Positions 2,950 to 25,182 of a DNA stretch of 25,475 nucleotides are shown here, piece after piece. The notes under the pieces are model-generated. The model was not told where the DNA came from and searched no databases. It was given only the letters and a program-made list of their open reading frames with translations. The first letter of the stretch is position 1, and every line of letters begins with the position of its first letter. The stretch is from a bacterium (lineage in GTDB: Bacteria > RBG-13-66-14): the NCBI GenBank assembly GCA_035528375.1, contig DATKYS010000131.1, positions 1 through 25,475 of the forward strand, in the 5' to 3' direction. A program made the position numbers and the translations under genes.

Positions 2950-4008
2950 CTACTCCACCGGGCACCAGGCGGGATTAAGACCTCCTTCTGTGGTCAACTG
3001 GGTCTGGTTGCCCCCATCGGCGTCCATCACGAAGATTTCCGAGCGACTGCCGGTGCGACCGGATGAGAAGGCGATGCGGCGGCCGTCGGGGCTCCAGGCG
3101 GGATCGCAGCTGTTACTATAATTGGTGGTCAACTGGATCAGCATACTACCGTCGGCTTCCATTAAGAAAATTTCACTGCCCCATGTAATACCGTTTGGGT
3201 AGGAGGTAAAAATTATGTGAAGTCCGTCAGGACTCCATTTGGGTTCAATATCTTTTATTATATTGTGGGTCAATTCTCTTTGATGGCCTCCCTTTAACAC
3301 GTAAATTTCACAGTCACCATTATCATCTTTTGCGTGGTAGGCGATGCATTTGCCGTCCGGGTTCCAGGCAGGCGTTTCATCCGCGAATTGATTTTCTTTA
3401 CCGCTTCCGTATGTTCGCCGTCTTTGGTTGCGCCCGTCGGCGTCCATCTCATAGATTTCCCAGTCCCCGTCGCGGTCGGAAACGAAGGCGATACGGCTGC
3501 CGTCGGGACTCCAGGCGGGCCACCTGTCAAGGCTTTCGTTGTCGGTCAACTGGATCTGGTTGCTCCCGTCGGCGTCCATCACGAAGATTTCCCGGTCCCC
3601 GTCGCGGTCGGAGGTAAAGGCGATGCGGCCGCCGTCCGGACTCCAGGCGGGACCCGCGTCCCAGTCATCGTCGAAGGTCAACTGGGTCTGGTTGCCCCCG
3701 TCGGCGTCCATCACGAAAATTTCCCGGTCCCCGTCGCGTTTGGAGTCGAAGGCGATGCGGCGGCCGTCGGGACTCCAGGCGGGAAACATGTCATCACTGG
3801 TGTTGTCGGTCAACTGGGTCTGGTTGCTACCGTCGGCGTTCACCACGAAGATTTCCCAGTCCCAGTCCCCGTCGCGGTAGGCTTGGTAAGCGATGAGGCC
3901 GTTATCATACTCTCCGCCACCGACGTCTTCGCCGCTTCTCGAGATCGGAAACAAACAACCCAGCGTGAACCCCAGGAGAAGTGCACAGATTAGAAAAACG
4001 GTTCTCAT
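2950..4008 (-). CDS. PD40/WD40-like beta-propeller lipoprotein, paralogue 1
   Basis: 352-residue predicted secreted lipoprotein. The signal peptide MRTVFLICALLLGFTLGC ends in a lipobox-like Cys18. Seven repeats of about 42-45 residues follow, each built as RIAF-S-xRDGDxEIFVMDADGxNQTQLT-PAWSPDG, the PD40 (WD40-like) module of TolB and related propellers, so a seven-bladed propeller is likely. Repeats 4-6 are the most divergent. The C-terminus ends PAWCPVE, as in both paralogues. The start is supported by GGAGGGAGGG just upstream and a near-consensus promoter at 4044-4072. Probable location is the periplasm or outer surface. TolB-like propellers usually mediate protein binding, and no enzyme residues are visible. 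A repeat element directly follows the stop. Confidence 0.85.
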   Translation of the reverse strand: MRTVFLICALLLGFTLGCLFPISRSGEDVGGGEYDNGLIAYQAYRDGDWDWEIFVVNADGSNQTQLTDNTSDDMFPAWSPDGRRIAFDSKRDGDREIFVMDADGGNQTQLTFDDDWDAGPAWSPDGGRIAFTSDRDGDREIFVMDADGSNQIQLTDNESLDRWPAWSPDGSRIAFVSDRDGDWEIYEMDADGRNQRRRTYGSGKENQFADETPAWNPDGKCIAYHAKDDNGDCEIYVLKGGHQRELTHNIIKDIEPKWSPDGLHIIFTSYPNGITWGSEIFLMEADGSMLIQLTTNYSNSCDPAWSPDGRRIAFSSGRTGSRSEIFVMDADGGNQTQLTTEGGLNPAWCPVE

Positions 4009-4043
4009 CTCCCTCCCTCCAAACCAGGAAAACTTCCACGACC

Positions 4044-4072
4044 ATTAAATATTAAAGCAAAAATCCTGTCAA
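4044..4072 (-). promoter_or_regulatory. Near-consensus sigma70-type promoter for PD40 gene 1
   Basis: On the minus strand, TTGACA (4067-4072) is separated by exactly 17 bases from TTTAAT (4044-4049). The predicted start of transcription is near 4037, giving a leader of about 29 bases with GGAGGGAGGG before the ATG at 4008. The -35 box begins nine bases after the end of the terminator hairpin of the fumarase relic. Confidence 0.75.
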
Positions 4073-4080
4073 TGTAAAAA

Positions 4081-4099
4081 GAGAGCCGGTCGGGCTCTC
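4081..4099 (-). terminator. Intrinsic terminator of the fumarase relic
   Basis: GAGAGCC (4081-4087), a five-base loop and GGCTCTC (4093-4099), followed on the minus strand by TTTTTACATTG. It is nearly identical in stem to the hairpin at 6565-6585 behind the intact fumarase gene and lies at a similar distance from the stop codon. Confidence 0.7.
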
Positions 4100-4128
4100 C
4101 TGATTTTTAACGTGCTGATGTTGGCTTT

Positions 4129-4176
4129 TTACAACACGACGGACTTGTGCCGCGCCGTGTGACTCTGGACGTTGTC
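4129..4176 (-). pseudogene. Relic of the 3' end of a fumarase alpha gene
   Basis: Sixteen codons on the minus strand read DNVQSHTARHKSVVL then TAA. The intact fumarase alpha subunit at 6621-7463 ends VNVQCHAARHKSVEL then TGA; 11 of 15 residues match. The nucleotide match is strongest over CGACGGACTTGTGCCGCGC (4137-4155 and 6629-6647). Upstream the similarity stops and an in-frame TGA occurs at 4192-4194, so only a stub remains. The terminator hairpin next to it is also shared. This is the remnant of a duplicated or displaced fumarase gene. Confidence 0.75.
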
Positions 4177-4285
4177 CGTTTTAAAAGGGAATCAGAAGCG
4201 ACGGGCCACGGGGGATGCATCCCGCGGGGCCGCCCTACACATTGTTACCCCTCGTCACCCACCGTGGATAGAGTCATGGCGGGAC
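4177..4285. other. Intergenic stretch with a palindrome and a short repeated motif
   Basis: Holds the perfect palindrome GGGATGCATCCC (4212-4223) and then GGGGCCGCCCTACA (4226-4239), a 14-base motif found again at 25446-25459 near the end of the window. No gene is supported here. Confidence 0.5.
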
Positions 4286-5278
4286 CTACTCCACCGGACC
4301 CCAGGTGGGGGAACTGTCCCAATCATCGGTGTCGGTCAACTGGGTCTGATTGCTTCCGTCGGCGTCCATCACGAAGATTGCATAGTTCCGTATAAAGGCG
4401 ATGCGGCTACTGTCCGGACTCCAGTCTGGAGCGGGATACCTGCTTTTGGTGGAGGTCAACGGGGTCTGGTTGCCTCCGTCGGCGTCCATCACGAAAATGT
4501 CCCAGCCCCCGACATCCCCTACGCGTTGGGAATAGAAGGCAATGCGGCGGGCGTCCGGACTCCAGACAGGATAGAGGTCAAAGCTTCCGTTGTCGGTCAA
4601 CTGGGTCTGGTTGCCACCGTCGGCGTCCATCACGAAAATTACACAGCCACTACCCCCGACGCATTCGGATTGAAAGGCGATGCGGCTACCGTCGGGACTC
4701 CAGGAGGGATACCAGTCCTCTCTACTATTAAAGGTCAACTGGGTTTGGTTGCGCCCGTCGGCGTCCATCACGAAAATTTCATCGCCCCCCTCGCGCCAGG
4801 TAACGAAAGCGATGCGGCGGCCGTCCGGACTCCAGGAGGGAGACCAGCTGTCGCGAGCGTTGTCGGTCAACCGGGTCTGGTTGCGTCCGTCGGCGTCCAT
4901 CACGAAGATATTCCGCTTCCCGTCGCGGTTGGATATGAAGGCGATGCGGCTGCCGTCGGGGTTCCAGGCGGGGCAATGGTCCCCATAGTCGTTGTCGGTC
5001 AACTGGGTCTGATTGCTTCCGTCGGCGTCCGTCACGAAGATTTCCCCGTCCCCGTCGCGTTTGGACTCGAAAGCGATGCGGCCGCCGTCCGGACTCCAGG
5101 CGGGATTCCTGTCATCACTTGTGTTGTTCGTCAACTGGGTTACATTGCTTCCATCGGCATCCATCACGAAGATTTCATTGCTCCGTATAAAGGCGATGCG
5201 GTATTGTTTGTAGCAGCTCAAGGAAAACAGGACGGCAACTATCGCAATGGCCGCAAAAAGAAACTTGTTTGCCTTCAT
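4286..5278 (-). CDS. PD40/WD40-like beta-propeller lipoprotein, paralogue 2
   Basis: About 330 residues from ATG at 5278, chosen because GGAGGAG lies nine bases upstream and the protein then begins with a signal peptide, MKANKFLFAAIAIVAVLFSLSC (Cys near residue 22, loose lipobox SLSC). An upstream in-frame start at 5344 would lie inside paralogue 3. Seven PD40 repeats follow, with the EIFVMDADGxNxTQLT core. Blades 5 and 6 carry two- to four-residue insertions in the DGD loop (VGGSGC, VGDVGGW), and the first and last blades are short. It ends PTWGPVE. Only 31 bases separate it from the stop of paralogue 3 on the same strand, so the two are likely one transcript. Role unknown; the propeller suggests an extracytoplasmic binding scaffold. 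Confidence 0.85.
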   Translation of the reverse strand: MKANKFLFAAIAIVAVLFSLSCYKQYRIAFIRSNEIFVMDADGSNVTQLTNNTSDDRNPAWSPDGGRIAFESKRDGDGEIFVTDADGSNQTQLTDNDYGDHCPAWNPDGSRIAFISNRDGKRNIFVMDADGRNQTRLTDNARDSWSPSWSPDGRRIAFVTWREGGDEIFVMDADGRNQTQLTFNSREDWYPSWSPDGSRIAFQSECVGGSGCVIFVMDADGGNQTQLTDNGSFDLYPVWSPDARRIAFYSQRVGDVGGWDIFVMDADGGNQTPLTSTKSRYPAPDWSPDSSRIAFIRNYAIFVMDADGSNQTQLTDTDDWDSSPTWGPVE

Positions 5279-5309
5279 TGGGCTTGCTCCTCCTTCAGTT
5301 GTAAGTTTT

Positions 5310-6287
5310 TTATTCCACCGGGTACCAGGCGGGATGATCGTCATAACTACTGTTGAAGGTCAACTGGGTCTGGTTGCTCCCGTCGCTGTTCATCACGAAG
5401 ATTTCATAGTCCCCGTCGCGGACTGAGCCGAAGGCGATGCGGCTGCCGTCCGGACTCCAGGTGGGCCACCAGTCAATGTTTACATTGTCGGTCAACTGGG
5501 TCTGGTTGCGCCCGTCGGCGTCCATCACGAAGATTTCATCGTCCCCGTCGCGGTCGGAAACGAAGGCGATGCGGCCGCCGTCCGGACTCCAGGTGGGCCA
5601 ACAGTCACCACTGGTGTTGTCGGTCAACTGGATCTGGTTGCCCCCGTCGGCGTCCATGATGAATATCTCGTCGTCCCCGTCGCGGAAGGAGTGAAAGGCT
5701 ATACGACTGCCGTCCGGGCTCCATGCGGGATCCCAATCACCGCTTTCGTTGTCGGTCAACTGTGTCTGGTTGCGCCCGTCGGCGTCCATCACGAAAATTT
5801 CCTCGTCCCCGTCGCGGTTGGAATCGAAGGCAATGCATCCGCCGTCGGGACTCCAGGCGGGATCCCAATCGGCGCTTTCGTTGTCGGTCAACCGTGTCTG
5901 GTTGCGCCCGTCGCTGTCCATCACGAAGATTTCCAAGTCCCCGTCGCAGTTGGAATCGAAGGCGATGCGATCGCCGTCCGGGCTCCATGCGGGACCCCAA
6001 TCACCGCTTTCGTTGTCGGTCAACTGGATCTGGTTGCCCCCGTCGTCGTCCATCACGAAGATTTCCCCGTCCCCGTCGCGGTCGGAGTGAAAAGCGATGC
6101 GGACGGGTTGATCATCACCGTCCCCGTCACCTGAAGTAGGAAACGAGCATCCCAGCGTGAGCCCGAGGAGAAGCGCACAACTTAAAGAAAGGTTTTTTAT
6201 CTCCCCGCCTATAAAACCAGACCTTAAAAGGAATTCTGAATGATACACAGATAAATAAGGGATCACCACTTCATTTCGGACCAGCAC
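5310..6287 (-). CDS. PD40/WD40-like beta-propeller lipoprotein, paralogue 3 (start codon uncertain)
   Basis: Six near-identical PD40 repeats (RIAF-SxRDGDxEIFVMDxDGxNQTQLTDN-SGDWxPAWSPDG) and the shared PAWYPVE C-terminus. The signal segment KNLSLSCALLLGLTLGC closely matches paralogue 1, but the codon at the homologous start position (6198-6200) is ATA, preceded by GGGGAG. The nearest in-frame ATG is at 6287, giving an unusually long 46-residue leader before the lipobox Cys. No ATG, GTG or TTG lies between the GGGGAG and the signal peptide. Either ATA is used, a far-upstream ATG or GTG is used, or expression is impaired. With six blades against seven in its sisters, one repeat has probably been lost or gained by recombination between near-identical units. 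It is upstream of, and probably co-transcribed with, paralogue 2. Confidence 0.75.
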   Translation of the reverse strand: MLVRNEVVIPYLSVYHSEFLLRSGFIGGEIKNLSLSCALLLGLTLGCSFPTSGDGDGDDQPVRIAFHSDRDGDGEIFVMDDDGGNQIQLTDNESGDWGPAWSPDGDRIAFDSNCDGDLEIFVMDSDGRNQTRLTDNESADWDPAWSPDGGCIAFDSNRDGDEEIFVMDADGRNQTQLTDNESGDWDPAWSPDGSRIAFHSFRDGDDEIFIMDADGGNQIQLTDNTSGDCWPTWSPDGGRIAFVSDRDGDDEIFVMDADGRNQTQLTDNVNIDWWPTWSPDGSRIAFGSVRDGDYEIFVMNSDGSNQTQLTFNSSYDDHPAWYPVE

Positions 6288-13253: not shown

Positions 13254-15269
13254 ATGGAGAGCAAGGTTGTGATTGTACCTCCCGGTAAGATTTACGACTT
13301 CGTTGATGGGAAGTTTAGGGATGACACACCGGAAGAGTATGTCAGGCAGAACATTGAAAAGCGCCTTGTCATCGAGCATGGCTACCCGAAGGAACAGATA
13401 GCCGTCGAGTTTACGATCAGAACCGGCTCAAAACGGCCTCGGGCGGACATCGTTATCTTCCACGACAAGGAGAATCGAGCCCAAGAGAACATTAAAATCA
13501 TCATTGAGTGCAAGAAGGAGAAGACAGAGCCCACCCAGAAAAAGGATGGCGTAGGGCAGTTGCAAGCGTACATGTCCTCCTGCCCTAACTGTGAATGGGG
13601 GATGTGGACTAATGGGAGGCAGCGGTTTGTCTATCGGAAGGTAGTTAATGAGAAAGGCCGGATTGAGTTTGAGGAGCCTAACGACATCCCTTCTGTTGAC
13701 GGTTCCTTGGAGAACATCGAGCGTCCCAAGCGCACCACGCTGAAGAGGTCGGTGGAAGACAATCTCCTCTTTGCCTTCAAGACCTGCCACAACCACATTT
13801 ACGCTAATGACGGGCTTCAGAAATCGGAGGCGTTCTTTGAGCTTCTGAAGGTTATCTTCTGCAAGATATTCGATGAACACAACATAGGTCATCCTTTAGA
13901 GTTCTACGCAAAATCCAAGGAGCGGGCAAACCCCGATGGTCAGCTTGTAATCGCCGGTCGTATCGGCCGAATCTTTGATGCGGTCAAGGCGCAGTACCCC
14001 CAGATATTCGAGGCCGCCGACAAGATAAAACTCAAGCCTCGGAGCCTGGCTTACATTGTAAGCGAATTGCAGAGCTATTCCTTCCTCGGCACCGACGTAG
14101 ATATTAAAGGGAAGGCTTACGAAGAAATCGTCGGCTCGAACCTTCGTGGGGATAGAGGGGAGTTCTTTACCCCGCGTAACGTCGTAAGAATGGCCGTAGG
14201 GATGCTTGAGCCCACTGTTGACGAGCGGGTGCTTGACCCCGCATGTGGCACCGGCGGATTTCTTGTCGTGGCAATGAATTATGTGGGAGATGTGTTGAGG
14301 CAGGCATTTGAGGAGGAGTTAGGTAAGACTCAAAAGGAATGGTCAGACACTGAGAAGGATACATTCGCTCGTAAAATAAGACAGGTTGCCGAAGAGAACT
14401 TCATTGGCTTCGATTTAAGCACGACCCTGGTTAAAGCCACGAAAATGAACATGGTGATGAACAACGACGGCAACGTTAATATATTCCAGTGCCACTCTCT
14501 TCTTTCTCCTCACGAGTGGGAGGCGCACCTTAGAGAGGGGGTGTCGAAGGTACTCGGCATCCGTGCCTCTGACATTCGCAACGCCGACACTATTGGGTTC
14601 TTCGATGTGGTAATGACTAATCCTCCCTTCGGGAGCGAGATACCGATTAGAGATGCTACGATTCTTAGCCAGTATGATTTAGGATACATTTGGGAGGAGG
14701 ACAAAGAGCATCCTGGTGCATGGAGAAGAACCGATAGGCTTCAAAGCTCTGTTCCACCCGAGCAACTTTTCATCGAGCGTTGTGTGCAGTTCCTAAGACC
14801 CGGTGGGCGTATGGGCATCGTCCTCCCCGACTCGATTCTTGGCAATCCAGGGCTTGCGTATATCCGGCACTGGCTGATTAGGAACACGATTATCCTAGCC
14901 AGTATTGATCTTCATGTCGATACCTTCCAGCCCAAGAACGGCACACAAACCTCGGTTCTCTTCCTCCAGAAAAAGACCGATGAGCAGGTTAGAAAAGAAG
15001 AGCGCACCGGAAAGATGCGGGACTATCCTATCTTCATGGCGATGGTTGACAAGGTGGGGCATGACAAGCGGGGTAACAAGACCTATAAGAGAGACAAATA
15101 TGGGAATGAAATCCTGGAGGATGATGAGTCTTCTGGGGAGGTAGAAACTGCGGCGAATGGTACGCAGGTAATCAGGTACAAGGCTAAAAAGCGCATTGAG
15201 GATGACCAAATGCCTCTTGTAGTTGAAGCCTTCAGACAGTGGCGGAAGCAGGAGGGTATCTCATGGTAG
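13254..15269 (+). CDS. Fused restriction-modification protein: HsdR-N-like nuclease domain plus N6-adenine methyltransferase
   Basis: 671 residues, longer than typical HsdM (about 500). The N-terminal 130 residues resemble the type I HsdR N-terminal nuclease domain, with a PD-(D/E)XK-like set: D65 in RPRADIVIF, then E85-x-K87 in IIIECKKEK. A linker follows, then the HsdM-type methyltransferase: GEFFTPRNVVRMAVGML (about 302-318), motif I DPACGTGGF (about 327-335) and motif IV TNPPFG (about 455-460). The C-terminus is lysine-rich and helical. With the specificity subunit that follows and no helicase HsdR, the arrangement resembles BcgI-like type IIB/IIG systems, where one polypeptide cuts and methylates. 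The start follows GAAAGGA. Codon usage and composition are clearly more A+T-rich than accC or comB, indicating horizontal acquisition. Confidence 0.88.
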   Translation: MESKVVIVPPGKIYDFVDGKFRDDTPEEYVRQNIEKRLVIEHGYPKEQIAVEFTIRTGSKRPRADIVIFHDKENRAQENIKIIIECKKEKTEPTQKKDGVGQLQAYMSSCPNCEWGMWTNGRQRFVYRKVVNEKGRIEFEEPNDIPSVDGSLENIERPKRTTLKRSVEDNLLFAFKTCHNHIYANDGLQKSEAFFELLKVIFCKIFDEHNIGHPLEFYAKSKERANPDGQLVIAGRIGRIFDAVKAQYPQIFEAADKIKLKPRSLAYIVSELQSYSFLGTDVDIKGKAYEEIVGSNLRGDRGEFFTPRNVVRMAVGMLEPTVDERVLDPACGTGGFLVVAMNYVGDVLRQAFEEELGKTQKEWSDTEKDTFARKIRQVAEENFIGFDLSTTLVKATKMNMVMNNDGNVNIFQCHSLLSPHEWEAHLREGVSKVLGIRASDIRNADTIGFFDVVMTNPPFGSEIPIRDATILSQYDLGYIWEEDKEHPGAWRRTDRLQSSVPPEQLFIERCVQFLRPGGRMGIVLPDSILGNPGLAYIRHWLIRNTIILASIDLHVDTFQPKNGTQTSVLFLQKKTDEQVRKEERTGKMRDYPIFMAMVDKVGHDKRGNKTYKRDKYGNEILEDDESSGEVETAANGTQVIRYKAKKRIEDDQMPLVVEAFRQWRKQEGISW

Positions 15270-16741
15270 CGCCGCTACACAAGGAAGAGGAGCTTCAAAC
15301 ATCTGTTGAGGTTTCCCAAGAGGATTTACAGTGGAGCACTGTGAGCCTGTTGAGCGATGTGCTCACTAGGAGAAACAAAAAGGTGCGTCTTGAGGCGAGT
15401 GTTTTTGGCATTGAGGGGAGACATGCCCGTGAGGTATTAAAGCAGAACAAATGGCCACGCAATCAATTGGTTGGTGATACAGGCTTAGCAACAGCTTATT
15501 ATCCAAGCAGGTTTTCTCGGGTATATCAAGAAGATAAAACGTACCCATTTATTACCCCAAAGCAAATTGAGGATATTAAACCAGAGCCCAAGGGTTATCT
15601 ATCAAAGTTATGCGAGGTTGATTTAAAAGGCTTAATGCCTTCTTCTGGAGAGGTATTGGTTACAAGGTCCGGCTCTGTAGGTAGATGTGCCTATGTAAAT
15701 AAAACCCTTGAAGAATACGCGGTTAGTGATGATGTCATTAGATTGCATGCATATCAAAAGTGTGATTCTGGATACATCTACGCCTTCTTACGTACAAAAA
15801 TCGGTCAAACACTTGTTACCACAAACCAATATGGGGCAGTCATCAAGCATATTGAGCCAGAGCACCTAGAAAACATTCCAATACCCGTCCCTCCAAATGA
15901 GTTGAAGAAGAAGATCCATGATTTAATCGTACACTCCTATGAACTGCGAGATGAATCCAACGCCTTGCTTGACGAGGCTGAAAGCCTACTCTACAAAGCG
16001 CTCAACTTGCCGCCGATTGATAAATTAAAACCTGCATATCTGACGGATTCTGGTCTAAGGAGCTATCCTGTAAAGCTGTCTGAGTTTGATTCAAGGCTTG
16101 ACGGTTCTTACCACGTACCGATTATCAATGAAATCTTGAATGTCTTACAGAAGGAAGCGGCAGAAGTCACAAATGTAGGGAACCCGCGCATTTCTACAAA
16201 GGTTATTCTTCCCAATAGATTTACGAGGGTATATGTAGAGGAAGGGCAAGGAACTGTGTTTTTCGGCCACAAACAGATATTCCAAGTTGACCCTTCTGAT
16301 AAGAAATATCTATCAGTAGCCTATCATAGAAATAAGTTAGAGAATGAACTGGTATTAAAGGAAAACATGGTATTGATTTCAAGGAGCGGTACTATAGGAA
16401 AAGTTATGCTTACCCCGAAACATTGGGAGAGATGGGTTATTAACGAGCATGTAATTCGGGTCGTACCGGCGGATAATGAGATAGCTGGATACTTGAGCGT
16501 GTTTCTAAACTCCGACTATGGTTGGACGCTTGTTACTAGATTTACCTACGGCATGAACGTAGATGAAATAGATGATATGCAGGTATCTCGGGTTCCTGTA
16601 CCGTTGCTTAAAGACATAGAAATGCAAAAGCATATAAATAACCTTGCTTTGGAAGCCAACAAAATGCGCACGAAGGCTTACTACGCCGAGCAAAAGGCGA
16701 TTCAAATTACTAATGAAGAAGTGATATACAATGCGCGGTAG
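15263..16741 (+). CDS. HsdS-like DNA specificity subunit
   Basis: 492 residues from ATG 15263, chosen because AGGAGGG lies six bases upstream; it overlaps the methylase stop by seven bases. Two similar halves are visible. Each has a target-recognition domain ending in a G-x-V-L-[VI]-[ST]-RSG-[ST]-[VI]-G pattern (VLVTRSGSVGR near 130; VLISRSGTIGK near 375), then a YL/YIYAFL-x-S/T-x-x-G-x-x-L-V-T segment, then an I-P-V-P or V-P-V-P element and a helical spacer (KIHDLIVHSYELRDESNALLDEAE in the first). This tandem TRD-spacer layout is that of type I S subunits and recognises a split site. The sequence specificity cannot be read from this. Strongly A+T-rich like its partner. The last codons, AATGCGCGGTAG, repeat the first bases of comB (AATGCGCG). 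Confidence 0.9.
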   Translation: MVAPLHKEEELQTSVEVSQEDLQWSTVSLLSDVLTRRNKKVRLEASVFGIEGRHAREVLKQNKWPRNQLVGDTGLATAYYPSRFSRVYQEDKTYPFITPKQIEDIKPEPKGYLSKLCEVDLKGLMPSSGEVLVTRSGSVGRCAYVNKTLEEYAVSDDVIRLHAYQKCDSGYIYAFLRTKIGQTLVTTNQYGAVIKHIEPEHLENIPIPVPPNELKKKIHDLIVHSYELRDESNALLDEAESLLYKALNLPPIDKLKPAYLTDSGLRSYPVKLSEFDSRLDGSYHVPIINEILNVLQKEAAEVTNVGNPRISTKVILPNRFTRVYVEEGQGTVFFGHKQIFQVDPSDKKYLSVAYHRNKLENELVLKENMVLISRSGTIGKVMLTPKHWERWVINEHVIRVVPADNEIAGYLSVFLNSDYGWTLVTRFTYGMNVDEIDDMQVSRVPVPLLKDIEMQKHINNLALEANKMRTKAYYAEQKAIQITNEEVIYNAR

Positions 16742-17470: not shown

Positions 17471-18952
17471 ATGTACGAGGACCTGCTGTACAAGATAATG
17501 GAGGCCATCGCGGGCGATACGGCCCACGAGGCCCACTTCAACCGCATCAGCCCCTCCGACATCGAGGACGCCGACACCTGCATCATGCTGGCGCTCTTCT
17601 ACCGCCGGCGCGCCGACCACGAGCGGGCCCAACTCTTCGAAGACCAGGCCAAGCTCTTGACCGATGCCGCCTTCGTCCGTACGCGGTCGAGTCGCGAAGA
17701 CCGCCCCAACCTCAAATCAGGGGTACCGATGTCCGACGATATTCTGGACGAGGTCCGCGCGGCTCTGGCCGGCGGTCCCGGAACGCCCGCCGCCAAGTTC
17801 GCCCACATCTTGCCCGAAAAGCTCGACGACGTGACCACCTGCAACGCCCTGGGCGATATGTACGCCAGGATCGGCAACTCGCAGCGGGCCTTCGCCTTCT
17901 ACCACCGGGCCGCCCAGCTCTACAAGGAGGACGGCTACAACACGAAGTCCATCGCCATCCTGCGCAAGGCCACGCGCCTCGGCTCGCCGCCGGTGGACGC
18001 TTTGTGGGAGCTGGGTGAGCTCTACGCCGCCGAGGGCTTCAAGGCCGAGGCCTCCGGGCAGTTCCTCCGCTTCGCCGACTCGAACCGCCGCGCCGGCGAC
18101 GCCCTGGCCGTTCTGAAGGCTTACGAGCGCATCGTCTCCCTGGACCCGAATAACTCCCATATCGCGGTCATCCTCGCCGATATGTACGCCAAGAGCGGGC
18201 TGTTGGAGAAGGCCGGACGGGAGTACGAGCGCGCCCTCGACCTCTTGCGCGACCACCAGGAGTTGGAGGAGATCAAGAGAATCGCCGAGAAGCTCAAGGC
18301 CCTGCACGTTCCGTCCATCGAACGGCCCGAGGAGACCAGGCCCGTCAGCCGCCGCGAATCCTCCGACCTCATCGTCATCCCCGAGGGCGGGATGGAGCTC
18401 GACATCGTTGAGGAGGAGCCTCCGGAAATTATTGCGGAGCCGGAGTACGAATCCGTCTTCGAGGAGGAGACCACCGACGAGCTCCTCGAGGAGCCGACCA
18501 CGGACGAGGGCACCGGGGTCATCCTCTACGCCAGCTTCGACAAAATCATCAGCGAATTCAAGCAGGCGATGAGCACCCTCACCGAGGGGGACGACCCCCA
18601 GGGGCACTACGACCTGGGTATCGCCTACAAGGAGATGGGGATGCTCAACGAGGCGATAATCGAGCTCCAGGCGGCCTCCCGGCACGCGGAGTTCCAGACC
18701 AAGGCGCTGCCCGTCCTGGCCGACTGCTTCGTGGACAAGAAGATGCCCGAGCTGGCGGTGAAGCAACTGGAGAGGGCCATCACCCTCACCGACTCGGAGC
18801 AGGAGCTCCTGGCCATGCACTACCAGGCGGCGATGCTCTGCCTCCAGCTCGACCGGCGCGCCGAGGCCATCGAGCACCTCCGGAATTGCTACTCCATGGA
18901 CGCCGATTACCTCGACGTGTCCAGGCGTCTCGACCGGCTGACGAAGAAGTGA
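17471..18952 (+). CDS. TPR-repeat protein with acidic linker
   Basis: 493-residue soluble protein without signal peptide or membrane spans. The first 85 residues and residues 87-165 form two related modules (I-x-P-x-x-I/L-D-D-x-x-T-C-x-x-L-x-x-x-Y motifs). TPR-like helix pairs continue to about 285. Residues about 305-350 are a Glu/Asp-rich low-complexity linker (EEEPPEII, EEETTDELLEEPTTDEG). A second TPR block follows (about 365-490) with PQGHYDLGIAYKEMGMLNEA as a clear TPR. Architecture like FrzS- or PilF-type scaffold proteins, but I cannot assign a pathway. It starts nine bases after comB with little Shine-Dalgarno signal. An internal ATG at 17729 (MSDDILDEV) could be an alternative start. 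Probably co-transcribed with comB. Confidence 0.85.
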   Translation: MYEDLLYKIMEAIAGDTAHEAHFNRISPSDIEDADTCIMLALFYRRRADHERAQLFEDQAKLLTDAAFVRTRSSREDRPNLKSGVPMSDDILDEVRAALAGGPGTPAAKFAHILPEKLDDVTTCNALGDMYARIGNSQRAFAFYHRAAQLYKEDGYNTKSIAILRKATRLGSPPVDALWELGELYAAEGFKAEASGQFLRFADSNRRAGDALAVLKAYERIVSLDPNNSHIAVILADMYAKSGLLEKAGREYERALDLLRDHQELEEIKRIAEKLKALHVPSIERPEETRPVSRRESSDLIVIPEGGMELDIVEEEPPEIIAEPEYESVFEEETTDELLEEPTTDEGTGVILYASFDKIISEFKQAMSTLTEGDDPQGHYDLGIAYKEMGMLNEAIIELQAASRHAEFQTKALPVLADCFVDKKMPELAVKQLERAITLTDSEQELLAMHYQAAMLCLQLDRRAEAIEHLRNCYSMDADYLDVSRRLDRLTKK

Positions 18953-19159: not shown

Positions 19160-21766
19160 ATGAACGAAGAACAGCTTCTCCGGGGGAACGGCACCGTGGT
19201 CCGGGATACCGGCTCGGGCCTGAGGGTCATCGTGCGCCGGGACCCCGCCGTCCCGGTGGTCACCGTGTGGGTCTGGGTGGGCGTGGGCAGCGTGAACGAG
19301 CCCGACGGAACGGGCGGCATCTCCCACGTCATCGAGCACATGGCCTTCAAGGGGACCCCGACCCGGGGCGTGGGGGAGATCAGCCGCGAGATAGAATCCC
19401 ACGGCGGCTTCATCAACGCCTTCACCGGCCACTACGCCACGGCCTACTTCGTCAGCCTCCCCCGGGAGCACGCGGGGCTCGGCGTCGAGGTCCTGGCTGA
19501 CGCGTTGTCCAACCCGCTCTTCGACCCGGACGAGCTGGCGCGGGAGCTCGAGGTCGTCGCCGAAGAGATAAGGATGCGCGACGACCAGCCCGGGACGCGG
19601 CTGTGGGAGTCGGCCGCCGGACAGGTCTACACCGTCCACCGCATGGGGCGCTCAGTCGGCGGCCACCTCGACGTGGTCAAGACCTTCACCCGCGACCAGG
19701 TCCTCGACCACCACCGCCGGCACTACACGCCGCGCAACTCCAGGGTGGTGGTGGTCGGCGACGTGGAGCCCGAGAAAATCTTTTCCGAGGTGGAACGGCG
19801 CTTTTCCGCCTACGGCCGCCCCTACCGCGAACCGGACCCCACCCCTCCGGAGCCGGAGCAGCTCGGGCCCCGGTTCAGGGTCGAGGAGATGCCGGTGAAC
19901 CGCGCCCACCTGGCCCTGGCCTGGCCCACCCCCGGGCAGCTCCACCCCGACACCCCCTCCCTGGACATCCTGACCGGCGTGGCCGGCGACGGCCTCTCCA
20001 GCCGCCTCTACCGCCGGGTTAAGGACGAGCTGAACCTGGTGGACGACATCTCGGCCTCCCTGGTGATCGGCGACGACGCCGGCATCTTCTACGTTGACTG
20101 CGAGCTGGACCCCGCCGACGTCCGGCGGGCCCTGGCGGCGATTCTGGGCGAGACGGCGCTGCTCCGGAATCGGCCCGCGGGGCCTTACGAGCTGAACCGG
20201 GTCCGCAACACGGTGGAGCTCTCATACCTCCAGGAGCGCGAGACCGTGGAGGGACAGGCGCACGAGCTGGCCCACTACGACCACCTGGGCGACTGGCGCC
20301 GGGCCGAGGAGTACCTCCGCGGTCTCTACGCGGTCAGCGCCGAATCGGTCCTCGGGGCGGCCGGACGGTACCTCGCCCCGGAGAAGCTCAGCGTGGCGCT
20401 GGTCGTCCCCCCGGGGCGGGCGGCGGAGCTGGGGAACCTGGAGCCCGCGGCCGACCATTCGTCACCGCCGCCGGTCCGCCGGCCCCCCGCGGAGATGCCC
20501 CCCCGCCCCGTTTCCCCCTCACCGGTTTCGGTCGAGGAGACGGTCCTGGGTAACGGTGTGCGCCTGGTCCTCCGCCGCAACACCACCCGCGCCCTGGCGT
20601 CGGTGGCAGCCTTCACCACCGGGGGGCTTTTCGAGGAGCCCGCCGAGCTCGAGGGTGTGACCAATTTCGCCCTGGAGATGGCGCTGCGCGGCACCCGCGA
20701 GCACGACGCCCGCGAATTCCACGCCCTCGCGGAGTACTACGGGGCGGAGCTGGACACCGACGTGCAGCGCGACTTCTACGGGTTCAAGCTGGACTGCGCC
20801 GCCCGCCACCTGGACCCGGGGCTGGCCCTCCTCGCCGAGGCCCTGACGCGGCCCGCCTTCCCCGAAAGCGAGCTGGAGCCTAAGCGGAGCGACATCCTGG
20901 CCGAAATCGCCACCCGGACCGACGACGCGTCGGCGTACACCCTGGGCCGTGTCAACACCGCCCTCTACGGGGGGCGGGGGTACGGGCGCTTCCTGGACGG
21001 GCGCGAGGAGACGGTGCGCGTCCTGGACGCCGCGGCGCTCTCGGGGTGGTACGGCGACCGCTTGCGGGCGGACAGTCTGGTCATCGGCGTCAGCGGCGAC
21101 TTCGAGCGCGACCCCCTCGTCGCGCGGCTCGAGGAGCTGTTCGGCGGGCTTCGGCGGGGTGACGGTCCGCCCGATCCCCCCCCGCGCATCTATGGCACGG
21201 ACAACGTGGAGGAGCGGCTGCCCAAGCAGCAGACCCACGTGGCGCTGGCCTTCCCCGCTCCGGCGCTGGGCGACGACCGGCGTTTCGCCGCCGGTGTGCT
21301 GGCCCAGGGGCTGAACGGGGCCGGGAGGAGGCTCTTCGTCGAGTTGCGCGACCGGCTTAACCTGGCTTACGTCGTCTTCTTCCTCTACCGACCGCTCCGC
21401 GGCGCGGGTGGGTTCTTCAGCTACATCGCCACCCAGCCGGGACGGGGCGAAGAGGCGCAGGGCGCCCTCCGGGGCGAGCTGGAGCGGGTCGCCCGGGGAG
21501 GGCTCGAGCCCGTCGAGGTGGCCGAGGCCAGGGAGCACGTCGTCGGCCTCTACCAGCTCGGGCGCCAGAGGAACGCGGCGTTGGCCGCCGTTTACGCCGG
21601 CGCCGTGATCCAGGGGCTCACCGCCCGGGACGTGGATCTCTACCCCGAGCGCATCGCCGCCGTCACCCACGACGAGGTCAACGCCCTGGCGGCGGAATGT
21701 CTGGACCCGTCGCGCGGCGTGCGGTGCGTCATCCGGGGGACCCTGCCGGACCGCAAGACGAGGTAG
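19160..21766 (+). CDS. M16 family zinc metallopeptidase, two fused domains (one active, one inactive)
   Basis: 868 residues, equivalent to a fused pair of the usual 420-450-residue M16B subunits. The N-terminal half has the inverted zinc motif HVIEH (56-60) with the third ligand in EVVAEEIRMRDD (E135 or E136), so it is catalytic. The C-terminal half (from about 455) has the same fold but reads NFALEMALRGT where HxxEH is expected, so it is a non-catalytic partner domain, as in heterodimeric mitochondrial-processing-type peptidases. Between them is a Pro-rich linker (about 433-455). There is no signal peptide, so it is probably cytoplasmic. Likely substrate: small unfolded peptides; the PqqL or processing-peptidase role is not determinable. 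The stop is two bases before the GTG of the NuoF-like gene, which suggests one transcript. Confidence 0.93.
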   Translation: MNEEQLLRGNGTVVRDTGSGLRVIVRRDPAVPVVTVWVWVGVGSVNEPDGTGGISHVIEHMAFKGTPTRGVGEISREIESHGGFINAFTGHYATAYFVSLPREHAGLGVEVLADALSNPLFDPDELARELEVVAEEIRMRDDQPGTRLWESAAGQVYTVHRMGRSVGGHLDVVKTFTRDQVLDHHRRHYTPRNSRVVVVGDVEPEKIFSEVERRFSAYGRPYREPDPTPPEPEQLGPRFRVEEMPVNRAHLALAWPTPGQLHPDTPSLDILTGVAGDGLSSRLYRRVKDELNLVDDISASLVIGDDAGIFYVDCELDPADVRRALAAILGETALLRNRPAGPYELNRVRNTVELSYLQERETVEGQAHELAHYDHLGDWRRAEEYLRGLYAVSAESVLGAAGRYLAPEKLSVALVVPPGRAAELGNLEPAADHSSPPPVRRPPAEMPPRPVSPSPVSVEETVLGNGVRLVLRRNTTRALASVAAFTTGGLFEEPAELEGVTNFALEMALRGTREHDAREFHALAEYYGAELDTDVQRDFYGFKLDCAARHLDPGLALLAEALTRPAFPESELEPKRSDILAEIATRTDDASAYTLGRVNTALYGGRGYGRFLDGREETVRVLDAAALSGWYGDRLRADSLVIGVSGDFERDPLVARLEELFGGLRRGDGPPDPPPRIYGTDNVEERLPKQQTHVALAFPAPALGDDRRFAAGVLAQGLNGAGRRLFVELRDRLNLAYVVFFLYRPLRGAGGFFSYIATQPGRGEEAQGALRGELERVARGGLEPVEVAEAREHVVGLYQLGRQRNAALAAVYAGAVIQGLTARDVDLYPERIAAVTHDEVNALAAECLDPSRGVRCVIRGTLPDRKTR

Positions 21767-21768
21767 CC

Positions 21769-23532
21769 GTGACCGGAGAATCACTCTCCCTCTTCGACCG
21801 CTGCTGCGAGCGCTGCCGCCACACCGACTCGGAGCCCTGCGGTGACTGGCTCGCCTGCCGCACCGTCGGTCCTTTCTGCCACACGGACCCGAAATGCGAC
21901 GAGGCCAGGACGGCGGTGGCGCGGCGCATCGCCTTCGGCCCCGGAGCCCTCGTCGGGGTGGGGCAGGGCGACTGCGGGCGCGGGGTCGGTTCCGGGGAGG
22001 TCCTGAAGATCCTGGGGAAGGGGCTGCCCGCCGACTCCTTCGAGGTCGTCCCCACCGGCTGCCTGGGCTTCTGCTCGGCGGAGCCGCTGGTCTGGGTGGC
22101 GCGGCCCGCGGAGCCGGTCACCCTCTTCGGCGGCGTCACCCCCGACGACGCCGTCGAACTCGCTTGGCGCCTCGCCGACGGCGTGGGGTGGCCCGAGAAG
22201 GTGCTGGCCTACCTCCCGCCCGCCCTGGCCGAGGAGCGCTCCTTCCGCGACAACCGCCACCTGTACACCGTCGAGGAGGTAAAGGGCGGCTACTACCCCT
22301 TCTTTCTGGACAAGCAGATGCGGCTCGTGACGGCGCACTGCGGCTTGTCCCGTCCGACCAACTTAGACGACCACCTCATGCGCCGGGGGCTGCACCCCCT
22401 CTACGTCCTCATGCGCCACCTGACCCCGGAGGAGGCCTTCGCCTTCCTCGAGGATTCGGGGCTGGAATCGCGCGTCACCGGCGAGCCCGTGGCGCCCGTC
22501 TGGCAGAACTTCTCGGGTACGGAAGGCGGGTTGATCCGCCTCGACCTGCGCGACGGGAGGGCCAATCCGCCCCCCCTCACCCGGCGGCTCCTCGAGGGGC
22601 TCCCCTTCCAGGTCCTCGAATCCCTCCTCCTGCTGGGGCTGGTGACGCGGACCGACCGGGCGGAAATCGTCCTCCCCGACGACTGGGACGGCCTCCACGA
22701 GGCGACGGCGCCCGAGGACGACCTGCTGCGGCGCTACGCCCCCCGGAGCGCGGCGCCCGAGGAGAACCTGCGCACCGCCCTGGAAGCGCTGCGGAGTCGC
22801 GGCCTGACAGGTGACAGCATCCTGGGCACGGACTTCTCCTGCTCGGTGGAGCTCGTCCGCGAGCCTTCGGAGGACGGGGAGGCGCTCGGGGTGGACCTGG
22901 AGACGGTCCTCAACGTGCCGGCCATCCTGGAGATGGGCGGGGAGTGGTTCAGGGGTTACGGCCACGGCCGGCACCCCGGCACGAAGTGCCTTCTGGTGGG
23001 GGGACCACTGGCGGCCAAGGGCTTTCTGGAATTAAACCTGGGCACGCCGCTGGGTGACGTGCTGAACCTGGTCTGTGGTGGCGGCGAGGGTCCCGTCAAC
23101 GAGGCGGCGCTGGACGGCGGCGGGGCGGTGCCGGCGGCGGAGTTCGACGCCGTCCTCGACTTCCCCGACCCGGAGGAGCTGCCCGGCCCGCCGGTCCTGG
23201 GCGCGCCCGCGACGGTCGTCTTCCGGGTCGCCGGGGAGACGGGGGAACCCGGTCCGGCGGAAACCGGGGAGCGGCCCGAGGTCCGCCTCTCGCCCCTGAC
23301 CGGTCTCCTCGCCCGTTACGGGGATATCACCCCGCCCACCGGGCTGCCGGCGAGCGTCCTGTTGGGCTGGCGGATGGCGGGGCAGCGGCTGCTCGTCCTG
23401 ACCACGGGCGCCGACGACGAGGCGGAGCTCTTCCACGCCGGGCGGCTGGCCGGGTACCTGAGCCGGGAGGCACCCCCGGAAATGGCCCGCTGGGCCGCGA
23501 ATCTGTTGAACGCCCTCCACTCCCAACCCTGA
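21769..23532 (+). CDS. Degenerate NuoF/HydB-like protein lacking FMN and C-terminal Fe-S motifs
   Basis: 588 residues from GTG 21769 (GAGG is five to six bases upstream; an ATG at 21697 would lie inside the M16 gene). Residues 12-43 hold seven Cys (C12, C13, C16, C24, C30, C37, C43), unusual for the family. A thioredoxin-like [2Fe-2S] domain follows (GQGDCG with C69; TGCLGFC with C98 and C102; EPLVWV). Then the NuoF core appears: PFFLDKQMRLVTAHCG (177-192), and LTPEEAFAFLEDSGL (218-232). At GRGGAGFPTG it reads ESRVTGEPVAP; at NADEGEPG it reads DLRDGRANPP; the GAYICGEETAL loop is deleted after ILGTDFS (351-357). VDLETVLNVPAI and GTKCLLVGG (375-415) are retained. The C-terminal SCGxCxPCR [4Fe-4S] domain is absent. 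Therefore NAD(P)H/FMN catalysis is improbable. It is followed 15 bases later by the hydrogenase-like gene. Confidence 0.85.
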   Translation: MTGESLSLFDRCCERCRHTDSEPCGDWLACRTVGPFCHTDPKCDEARTAVARRIAFGPGALVGVGQGDCGRGVGSGEVLKILGKGLPADSFEVVPTGCLGFCSAEPLVWVARPAEPVTLFGGVTPDDAVELAWRLADGVGWPEKVLAYLPPALAEERSFRDNRHLYTVEEVKGGYYPFFLDKQMRLVTAHCGLSRPTNLDDHLMRRGLHPLYVLMRHLTPEEAFAFLEDSGLESRVTGEPVAPVWQNFSGTEGGLIRLDLRDGRANPPPLTRRLLEGLPFQVLESLLLLGLVTRTDRAEIVLPDDWDGLHEATAPEDDLLRRYAPRSAAPEENLRTALEALRSRGLTGDSILGTDFSCSVELVREPSEDGEALGVDLETVLNVPAILEMGGEWFRGYGHGRHPGTKCLLVGGPLAAKGFLELNLGTPLGDVLNLVCGGGEGPVNEAALDGGGAVPAAEFDAVLDFPDPEELPGPPVLGAPATVVFRVAGETGEPGPAETGERPEVRLSPLTGLLARYGDITPPTGLPASVLLGWRMAGQRLLVLTTGADDEAELFHAGRLAGYLSREAPPEMARWAANLLNALHSQP

Positions 23533-23547
23533 GCCGAGGGGCGACCG

Positions 23548-25182
23548 ATGACGGACCCCCAGGTGTCGTTCATCCTCGACGGCCGCGAGGTTCAGGCGCC
23601 GCCCGGGACCACGGTTCTGGAGGCCGCGCGCAAGCTCGGTCACGCCATCCCCACCCTCTGCTACCACCCCCTCCTGAAGACGGACGGCCGCTGCGGCATC
23701 TGCACCGTGGAGCGGGAGCCGGCGGTCCTTATCCGGGCCTGCTCGACGCCGGTGGAGCAGGGGGCGGTCTACCACACCGGCTCTCCGGCCGTCGCGGCCC
23801 ACCGGCGCGAGGTGGCCAAGCTCCTCCTCTCCCGCCACGAGCTCTCCTGCCACGTCTGCGACCGCCACGGGGAGTGCGAGCTGGAGCGGCTGGTAGGGCG
23901 GCTGGGCATCACCGACGGCTCCCCGGTCGGTCTGGCGGCGCCGACCTTCACCGACCGCTCCTCGGCCTCGGTGTCGCTCCTGGGCGACCGCTGCCTGGCC
24001 TGCGGGCGGTGCGTCGCGCTCTGCGACCAGCTCGGCTGGGGGGCGCTCCGTATGGACGAGAAGCTGGTCCAGGCCCGGTCCGTGGACGAGCCCGGCCTGG
24101 CCGGACCGCACTGCACGAGCTGCGGCCAGTGCACCCTGGCGTGCCCCTCGGGCGCCCTGGTGCCCCGCTCGGCGGTGGTGCCGGTGGAATCGGCGCTCAT
24201 GGACCGGGACCGCCACTGCGTGGCCGTGCTGGAGCCGACCGCGGCGGCGGCGCTCATGAACGAGCTCAAGGTGGACGCCCAACCCCGGCTGATCGGTACC
24301 CTGGCCACCCTGGGCTTCGCCGGGGTGGTGGATTCCGCCTGGGGGGCGGACGCCTACCTGGTGGAGTTGGCGGACCGGCTGCACCGTGAAAAACCCCGCG
24401 CGGCGATAATCTCGCCCTGCGAGGCGGTGCGGCGGTACGTCAGGCTGAACCGGCCCGAGCTGGCCGGCTGGCTCCCGCCGGAGGCCGGGCCGTCACAACA
24501 GGCCGCCTTCAAATGGCGACAGAAAGTCTCGCCCGAGCTGGGACTCGCGCCGGGTCACTGCTACCTGGTGCAGTTGGCAACGGGCACGGCCGCCAAGGAG
24601 GGGGTCCGGCGCCACTCCGTGGACCGCGAGCGGGGGCTCGACGCCTCCCTCACCGTGCGGGAGCTCACCGGGCTGCTGCGGCGGTTGGGGCTGACGCCGG
24701 AGAAGGCCAAAGCCCGGGGCTTCACCCACCTGCGCGGCTCGCGGCTGGGGACGATGCTCGGGGCGCCGGGGGCGGTGACGGACGGTCTGGCGGTCGTCTG
24801 GGCCCAACGGAGCGGCTCCGCCTTCCCCGCGCCGAGCGGCGGGTTCCTCCCTCCCGAGGAGGAGGAGCGGGGGATCGAGCTGCCGGGAGGCGGGCGGGCC
24901 CGGGTCCTCGTGGCCCACGGCGGGAGACAGGTACAGAACGCCCTGGACCGGGCGGTGGAATTGAGCGCCGATAAAGGAGGGCCGCGGATTTTATTGGAGT
25001 TGTACGCCTGCCCGGGGGGCTGCCTGGGCGGTGGCGGGATGCTACGGCTGGCCGGTCCGGCCGAGCTCCAGCAGCGGTATCAGGCGCTGGTGTACCTGGC
25101 CGGCGGGGCCCAGTTTGATTACCCGCACCAGAACAAGCGCCTGCGGCGCTTCCACCCCGAACTCTTCGATCCGATAGTGTAG
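23548..25182 (+). CDS. [FeFe]-hydrogenase-like protein with incomplete H-cluster site
   Basis: 544 residues, start supported by GAGGGG six bases upstream. N-terminal NuoG-type modules are all complete: [2Fe-2S] C38, C49, C52, C65; His-Cys cluster H97, C101, C104, C110; two [4Fe-4S] sets C149/C152/C155/C159 and C189/C192/C195/C199. The hydrogenase core follows. VAVLEPTAAAALMNEL (225-240) is like the usual first core strand. L1 reads IISPCEAV (C291), where TSCCP is expected, so the proton-relay Cys is lost but the cubane ligand kept. L2 reads ATGTAAK (about 344-350), where MPCTAKK is expected, so its Cys is lost. L3 reads LLELYACPGGCLGGGG with C488 and C492 kept. Length (about 580 in CpI-type HydA) and frame are intact. 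Hydrogen catalysis is doubtful; an electron-transfer, sensory or scaffold role with the NuoF-like partner is inferred. Confidence 0.88.
   Translation: MTDPQVSFILDGREVQAPPGTTVLEAARKLGHAIPTLCYHPLLKTDGRCGICTVEREPAVLIRACSTPVEQGAVYHTGSPAVAAHRREVAKLLLSRHELSCHVCDRHGECELERLVGRLGITDGSPVGLAAPTFTDRSSASVSLLGDRCLACGRCVALCDQLGWGALRMDEKLVQARSVDEPGLAGPHCTSCGQCTLACPSGALVPRSAVVPVESALMDRDRHCVAVLEPTAAAALMNELKVDAQPRLIGTLATLGFAGVVDSAWGADAYLVELADRLHREKPRAAIISPCEAVRRYVRLNRPELAGWLPPEAGPSQQAAFKWRQKVSPELGLAPGHCYLVQLATGTAAKEGVRRHSVDRERGLDASLTVRELTGLLRRLGLTPEKAKARGFTHLRGSRLGTMLGAPGAVTDGLAVVWAQRSGSAFPAPSGGFLPPEEEERGIELPGGGRARVLVAHGGRQVQNALDRAVELSADKGGPRILLELYACPGGCLGGGGMLRLAGPAELQQRYQALVYLAGGAQFDYPHQNKRLRRFHPELFDPIV

Follow-up and report, generated by a model that had tools for sequence, protein, structure and literature searches.

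One family of Coatesbacteria encodes two adjacent proteins, termed HydB' and HydA' here, which probably form a stable, non-catalytic Fe-S pair derived from HydB-HydA of the CCxxC type and serving as an electron relay or redox sensor. The statement that the pair is neither a hydrogenase nor a decaying operon is well supported. As the sequences show, no member has a complete set of H-cluster ligands, the accessory Fe-S chain is retained, and selection maintains both genes. The two genes are located in contig DATKYS010000131.1, a stretch of 25,475 nucleotides that is referred to as the window in the following. The picture obtained is wider than that of a preliminary description, which dealt with HydA': the co-encoded HydB' lacks the flavin/NADH site as well, and CheW-linked relatives are present elsewhere.

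HydA' consists of 2Fe-2S, His-Cys 4Fe-4S and double 4Fe-4S domains followed by the H-domain of an [FeFe] hydrogenase (Table 1). Among proteins of solved structure, it comes closest to the HydA subunits of electron-bifurcating hydrogenases, namely 8a6t_A (E = 2.7e-51) and 7q4v_A (E = 1.4e-49), and profile-profile alignment with canonical HydA (hhalign) yielded a probability of 100 with E = 1e-74. The protein scored 82.7 bits with PF02906, and homology spans the accessory domains as well as the H-domain. With the NCBIfam model for group A6 it reached 238 bits, far below the cut-off of 765. The accessory sites were found intact, just as the preliminary description had claimed: the set of 15 cysteines plus His97 is complete and is kept in the orthologues wherever they are covered. 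From this conservation of cysteines we infer that Fe-S clusters probably occupy HydA' and also HydB'. An AlphaFold2 prediction calculated from two input sequences had a pLDDT of 32 and was discarded.

Table 1. Genes and sequence features of the HydB'-HydA' region, with positions in the window.
Feature	Position	Strand	Remark
TPR protein gene	17471..18952	+	conserved neighbor
M16 peptidase gene, HxxEH intact	19160..21766	+	conserved neighbor, directly upstream of HydB'
HydB', degenerate HydB/NuoF-like partner	21769..23532	+	profile match
CCxxC NuoF-prefix domain (NF040902) of HydB'	21787..21930	+	7 conserved Cys
2Fe-2S-like stretch of HydB'	21973..22074	+	C69, C98, C102, conserved
FMN-loop remnant of HydB'	22465..22503	+	ESR-VTGEPVAPVW in place of LRGRGGAGFPTGKKW
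Deletion point of HydB'	22861..22884	+	canonical HydB segment GAGAFVCGEETALIESIEG... gone
SLBB-like region of HydB', kept	22894..23088	+	ETVLN...GTKC...GGG
HydA' (544 aa), full-length homologue of HydABC-type [FeFe] hydrogenase	23548..25182	+	ORF, profile matches; H-cluster site incomplete
N-terminal [2Fe-2S] site of HydA'	23659..23742	+	C38/C49/C52/C65; complete in every orthologue covered
His-Cys [4Fe-4S] site of HydA'	23836..23877	+	H97/C101/C104/C110, intact
Two ferredoxin-like [4Fe-4S] sites of HydA'	23992..24144	+	C149/152/155/199 and C189/192/195/159, intact
L1 remnant of HydA'	24403..24429	+	around SPCEAV; C291 at second position
L2 remnant of HydA'	24577..24597	+	ATGTAAK; G346 in place of the ligand Cys, A349 in place of the motif Lys
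L3 of HydA'	25006..25035	+	ACPGGCLGGG, C488/C492; intact in window genus and G006, Asn and Ser in G005

In the H-domain, profile-profile alignment placed G346 on the invariant column of the L2 cysteine and revealed no substitute cysteine. The absence of a cysteine from L2, noted in the preliminary description, was thus confirmed, and it extends to the homologues: the cysteine and the L2 lysine, which is K358 in the numbering of Clostridium pasteurianum CpI and belongs to the ligand sphere around the 2Fe subsite, are missing in all HydA' orthologues. As this loss is common to all of them, chance is not an issue. The nearest cysteine, C338, was considered as a substitute L2 ligand and was ruled out because G006 has glycine at this position.

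The L1 motif of HydA' reads ISPCEA as compared to TSC(S/C)PG in canonical HydA. In CpI, the second cysteine of L1 is a ligand and the first is a proton relay. HydABC relatives usually have TSCSP, with a conserved cysteine in first position and mostly serine in second; the conserved cysteine is proline in HydA' and C291 sits at the serine. Since serine is usual at the second L1 position of these relatives, C291 argues only weakly for a kept ligand. The earlier reading of SPC at L1 and of C291, C488 and C492 as present is correct for the window protein, and the loss of a cysteine from L1 stands. Each of the five H-domain cysteines of the window protein (224, 291, 338, 488 and 492) is lost in at least one orthologue. 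The L1 pair is His-Cys in G006 and Arg-Asp in G005, and the latter has Ser, Asp, Cys, Asn and Ser at the five positions. All retained H-cluster ligand cysteines are therefore lost in G005 (four of the five window H-domain cysteines in total), while all nine accessory cysteines covered by its contig are kept (Fisher p = 0.005). In the window genus, where three possible H-site cysteines remain, a bound cluster at the H site is possible.

Among the seven genomes of the family (G000–G006), HydG and HydF were above cut-off only in G004 and G006, both of which also encode a canonical HydBA pair. The canonical HydA proteins of these two genomes are located elsewhere in the tree, which ruled out the idea that HydA' arose recently by duplication of the canonical HydA in this family. 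The preliminary description had named hydF and hydG as genes to look for, and both fell below cut-off in the four genomes of the window genus (G000–G003), including the window genome, which is rated 100% complete and contains no PF02906 protein besides HydA'. The two maturases were also below cut-off in G005, a weak result because this genome is 70% complete. Taken together, these data exclude an ordinary hydrogenase. They also bear on the idea that HydA' is an [FeFe] hydrogenase, active or sensory, whose H-cluster is ligated in an unusual way, comparable to the sensory HydS of groups C/D. Although the L3 cysteines and C291 are kept in the window genus and HydS proteins are devoid of a conserved cysteine near the H-cluster (PMC8924675), we consider such an enzyme extremely improbable, because the L2 cysteine and lysine are missing, HydF and HydG fall below cut-off in all four G000–G003 genomes and one orthologue, that of G005, is left without any ligand cysteine.

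The second protein of the pair, HydB', starts with GTG at position 21769, 2 nt past the stop codon of the M16 peptidase gene, and its stop codon lies 15 nt before HydA'. It is related to the HydB/NuoF scaffold (hhalign, 99.8%, E = 1.3e-27) and its NF040902 prefix scored 58 bits, above the cut-off of 45. The N-terminal cysteines are kept in all alignment rows covered. In all orthologues covered, the canonical FMN loop GRGG(A/G)GFPTG is altered, reading SR-VTGEPVAP in HydB', the DEGDPGAF motif is replaced and the GAGAFVCGEETAL segment is deleted. HydB' has no match to PF01512 (Pfam) and lacks the C-terminal SCGxCxPC [4Fe-4S] motif (SCGKCxPC in canonical HydB). As judged from these motifs, the FMN/NADH catalytic site of HydB' is removed. 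The cysteine in the SLBB-like region is shared with the CheW-linked HydB' proteins described below and is absent from the canonical HydB proteins compared.

HydB' was found in all seven genomes of the family and HydA' in six, full-length or partial; in G004 a contig end leaves the first codons only. No HydB' match above threshold was obtained in other Coatesbacteria families or in the rest of the 386 sampled genomes. When genome contigs were scanned with one protein, one close relative was retrieved, from Candidatus Coatesbacteria RBG_13_66_14, which matches G002. A search of viral contigs with the HydA' and HydB' profiles returned no relative, and the canonical HydA profile gave one partial match there. 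The order TPR–M16–HydB'–HydA' is kept across the family where contigs permit, and a MnmE-like gene (named by eye) follows further downstream of the pair in G002 and G006. For the M16 neighbor, a search of other Coatesbacteria families returned distant M16 homologues only.

Other parts of the window were also inspected. Between the AccC-like and ComB-like genes, at 13254-16741, ORFs resemble a restriction-modification methylase and a specificity subunit (by eye); in G001 and G002, different genes occupy roughly this position (L033 3302-5321; L035 179-3271), which suggests a variable defense hot spot. On the minus strand, positions 2950-6287 hold three consecutive genes for secreted proteins with repeats resembling TolB-type propellers (WSPDGxRIAF...EIFVMDADGxNQ), apparently tandem duplicates.

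Selection was assessed by pairwise dN/dS (Nei–Gojobori) within the window genus. Full-length HydA' gave 0.23 (G000–G002) and 0.28 (G000–G003), two HydA' fragments of G001 gave 0.19–0.42, and HydB' gave 0.30–0.36. For the neighboring genes, in pairs with G001 and G002, the values were 0.30–0.32 (M16), 0.32–0.33 (TPR), 0.43–0.46 (ComB-like) and 0.19 (AccC-like). In the comparison with G003, the H-domain of HydA' is constrained like the accessory domain (0.27 and 0.28). As dS may be underestimated in these GC-rich genomes, the comparison with neighbors carries more weight than the absolute values. By this measure, HydB' and HydA' are under purifying selection in the same way as the genes next to them. 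Stepwise loss of active-site residues, furthest advanced in G005, could also be the mark of a hydrogenase operon that is decaying and heading for loss. This idea was rejected on the basis of the selection data, and decay is very unlikely: the frames are open in four genera, with dN/dS like that of the neighbors, the accessory cysteines are fully conserved and synteny is kept. The shared L2 loss, the HydA' frame open in four genera, the neighbor-like dN/dS and the lack of HydF and HydG above cut-off in the window genus support the preliminary suggestion of a repurposed protein.

The CCxxC prefix is not confined to the family, as it also occurs on HydB proteins adjoining a canonical HydA (G104, G132, G294 and G028; the G327 match is weaker). 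In one other phylum, four out of four genomes examined (G111, G377, G249 and G386) have a CCxxC HydB–HydA pair with altered motifs. In these pairs, the L2 methionine is changed to Thr/Ser and the lysine to Glu, the L2 and L3 cysteines are still there, L1 reads TSCSPEW or SSSSPAW, and the FMN loop is GRGGSGEDVADKW, GRGKHGELVKKKW or SRGGTSQLVAAKW. The loci (L165 461-5617, L164 459-5759, L181 1102-6372 and L167 352-5506) consist of an RluD-like gene (by eye) followed by genes for a CheW protein, HydB' and HydA'. The CheW protein combines an N-terminal CheW domain with repeats that resemble the NuoE helical bundle; PF01257 was above cut-off in three of the four and below it in G249. It is possible that this row of genes specifies a chemotaxis-type redox sensor derived from a hydrogenase. 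The operon of Coatesbacteria contains no CheW gene. Separately, we note a 934-aa protein (L183 1514-6117, G111:C83) with a HydA-like N-terminus and a HydB-like neighbor, in which a pattern search found no H-cluster motifs.

In a concatenated tree, the eight CheW-linked and Coatesbacteria pairs fall on one side of a branch with support of 99/97, and the HydB' proteins of both groups share GT(K/R)C, mostly ETxLN, and (F/Y)GxG. A tree of HydA alone groups them at 16/13. Because HydA alone leaves the grouping unresolved and the branches are long, a common origin of the Coatesbacteria and CheW-linked pairs appears likely from these sequences but is not proven. More tentatively, and with somewhat less than even confidence, we suggest that they represent an undescribed class of pseudohydrogenase complexes, present in at least two phyla at differing stages of active-site loss, in which HydABC has been deprived of its two catalytic sites and has become a redox-sensing signaling module with CheW as the output in one phylum and another output in Coatesbacteria.

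With both catalytic sites gone and the electron wiring intact, the Coatesbacteria pair probably works in redox relay or sensing. What is retained are the parts that carry electrons, and this is explained most economically by a relay made of Fe–S clusters or by a sensor of redox state. The pair would take up electrons one at a time, from ferredoxin or a different Fe-S partner, and would hold them or pass them along the 2Fe-2S/4Fe-4S chain of HydA' and the Cys-rich N-terminus of HydB'; it would neither make H2 nor oxidize NADH. The kept H-domain and NuoF-like scaffold would offer docking surfaces, and the redox state would serve as a signal or be handed on to a partner. We favor sensing over plain relay because no catalytic terminus is left and because partly degenerate relatives adjoin CheW; this step may be correct, and it is the least certain one.

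A different possibility is that HydB' and HydA' are wire-like subunits within a larger enzyme, with HydA' in the role of NuoG, or of BfuA in NiFe-HydABCSL, and carrying electrons between a dehydrogenase encoded elsewhere and an acceptor. BfuA proteins without an H-cluster are known to serve other catalytic subunits in NiFe-HydABCSL and other Bfu enzymes, in which BfuB keeps FMN and its clusters (PMC9304861), and the accessory clusters of HydA' are intact. The window genome also has an HdrA-Bfu-like cluster (L120, G000:C77), comprising HdrA-like genes, a HydB-like gene, a NuoG-like gene and the only PF01257 (HydC-like) protein of that genome; it probably encodes a separate Bfu-type complex. Nevertheless we regard the larger enzyme as unlikely, since in all family genomes read the operon has no catalytic subunit and no HydC beside the pair, HydB' lacks the flavin site on which Bfu complexes rely, and the sole HydC-like protein belongs to that separate cluster.

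Pseudoenzymes are well known among kinases and proteases. In the open-access full-text literature, we found no bacterial two-subunit redox enzyme that had lost both catalytic cofactor sites with its wiring kept, no link between CheW and HydA and no non-functional hydrogenase-like pair. If the proposal of a non-catalytic relay or sensor pair is true, canonical CCxxC-HydBA, the CheW-linked pairs and the Coatesbacteria pairs would form a graded series in which the conversion of a hydrogenase into a relay or sensor can be tested. A further caution is that HydA matches taken without a check of the motifs overstate H2 metabolism in uncultivated phyla.

With the electron-bifurcating or NADH-dependent HydABC hydrogenases (Bfu family, FeFe type), especially those of the CCxxC-HydB subgroup, the Coatesbacteria pair shares the HydB-HydA order, full-length homology, all accessory-cluster cysteines of HydA and the NF040902 prefix, whereas the H-cluster site, the FMN/NADH site and the C-terminal [4Fe-4S] motif of HydB are absent, as is HydC from the operon. 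NiFe-HydABCSL likewise uses a HydA homologue without an H-cluster, yet its alignment (7t2r_A) covers residues 5-229 of HydA' and ends before the H-domain; the Coatesbacteria HydA' keeps a broken H-domain and its HydB' is catalytically empty. Sensory HydS (group C) is a HydA relative thought to sense, as may be true of HydA', but it retains the H-cluster (PMC8924675) and is linked to PAS, whereas HydA' has no complete cofactor site and no PAS domain was found in it. Nar1/CIAO3/NARF share the HydA fold and are not hydrogenases; Nar1 retains the [4Fe-4S]H site and has no 2Fe subsite (PMC12621388). An Fe-S cluster carrier of the Nar1/NARF type would account for such a fold, but HydA' displays the reverse pattern: its set of the four [4Fe-4S]H cysteines is incomplete, with the L2 cysteine missing and none left in G005, and its accessory chain is kept. 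As Nar1/CIAO3/NARF are moreover eukaryotic single proteins and HydA' is encoded with a HydB partner, there is little probability that HydA' is such a carrier. The CheW-linked HydBA pairs resemble the Coatesbacteria pair in their CCxxC HydB', the loss of the L2 methionine and lysine, the altered FMN loop and the cysteine at GT(K/R)C; they differ in keeping the L2 and L3 cysteines and in having a CheW/NuoE-like protein in place of TPR-M16.
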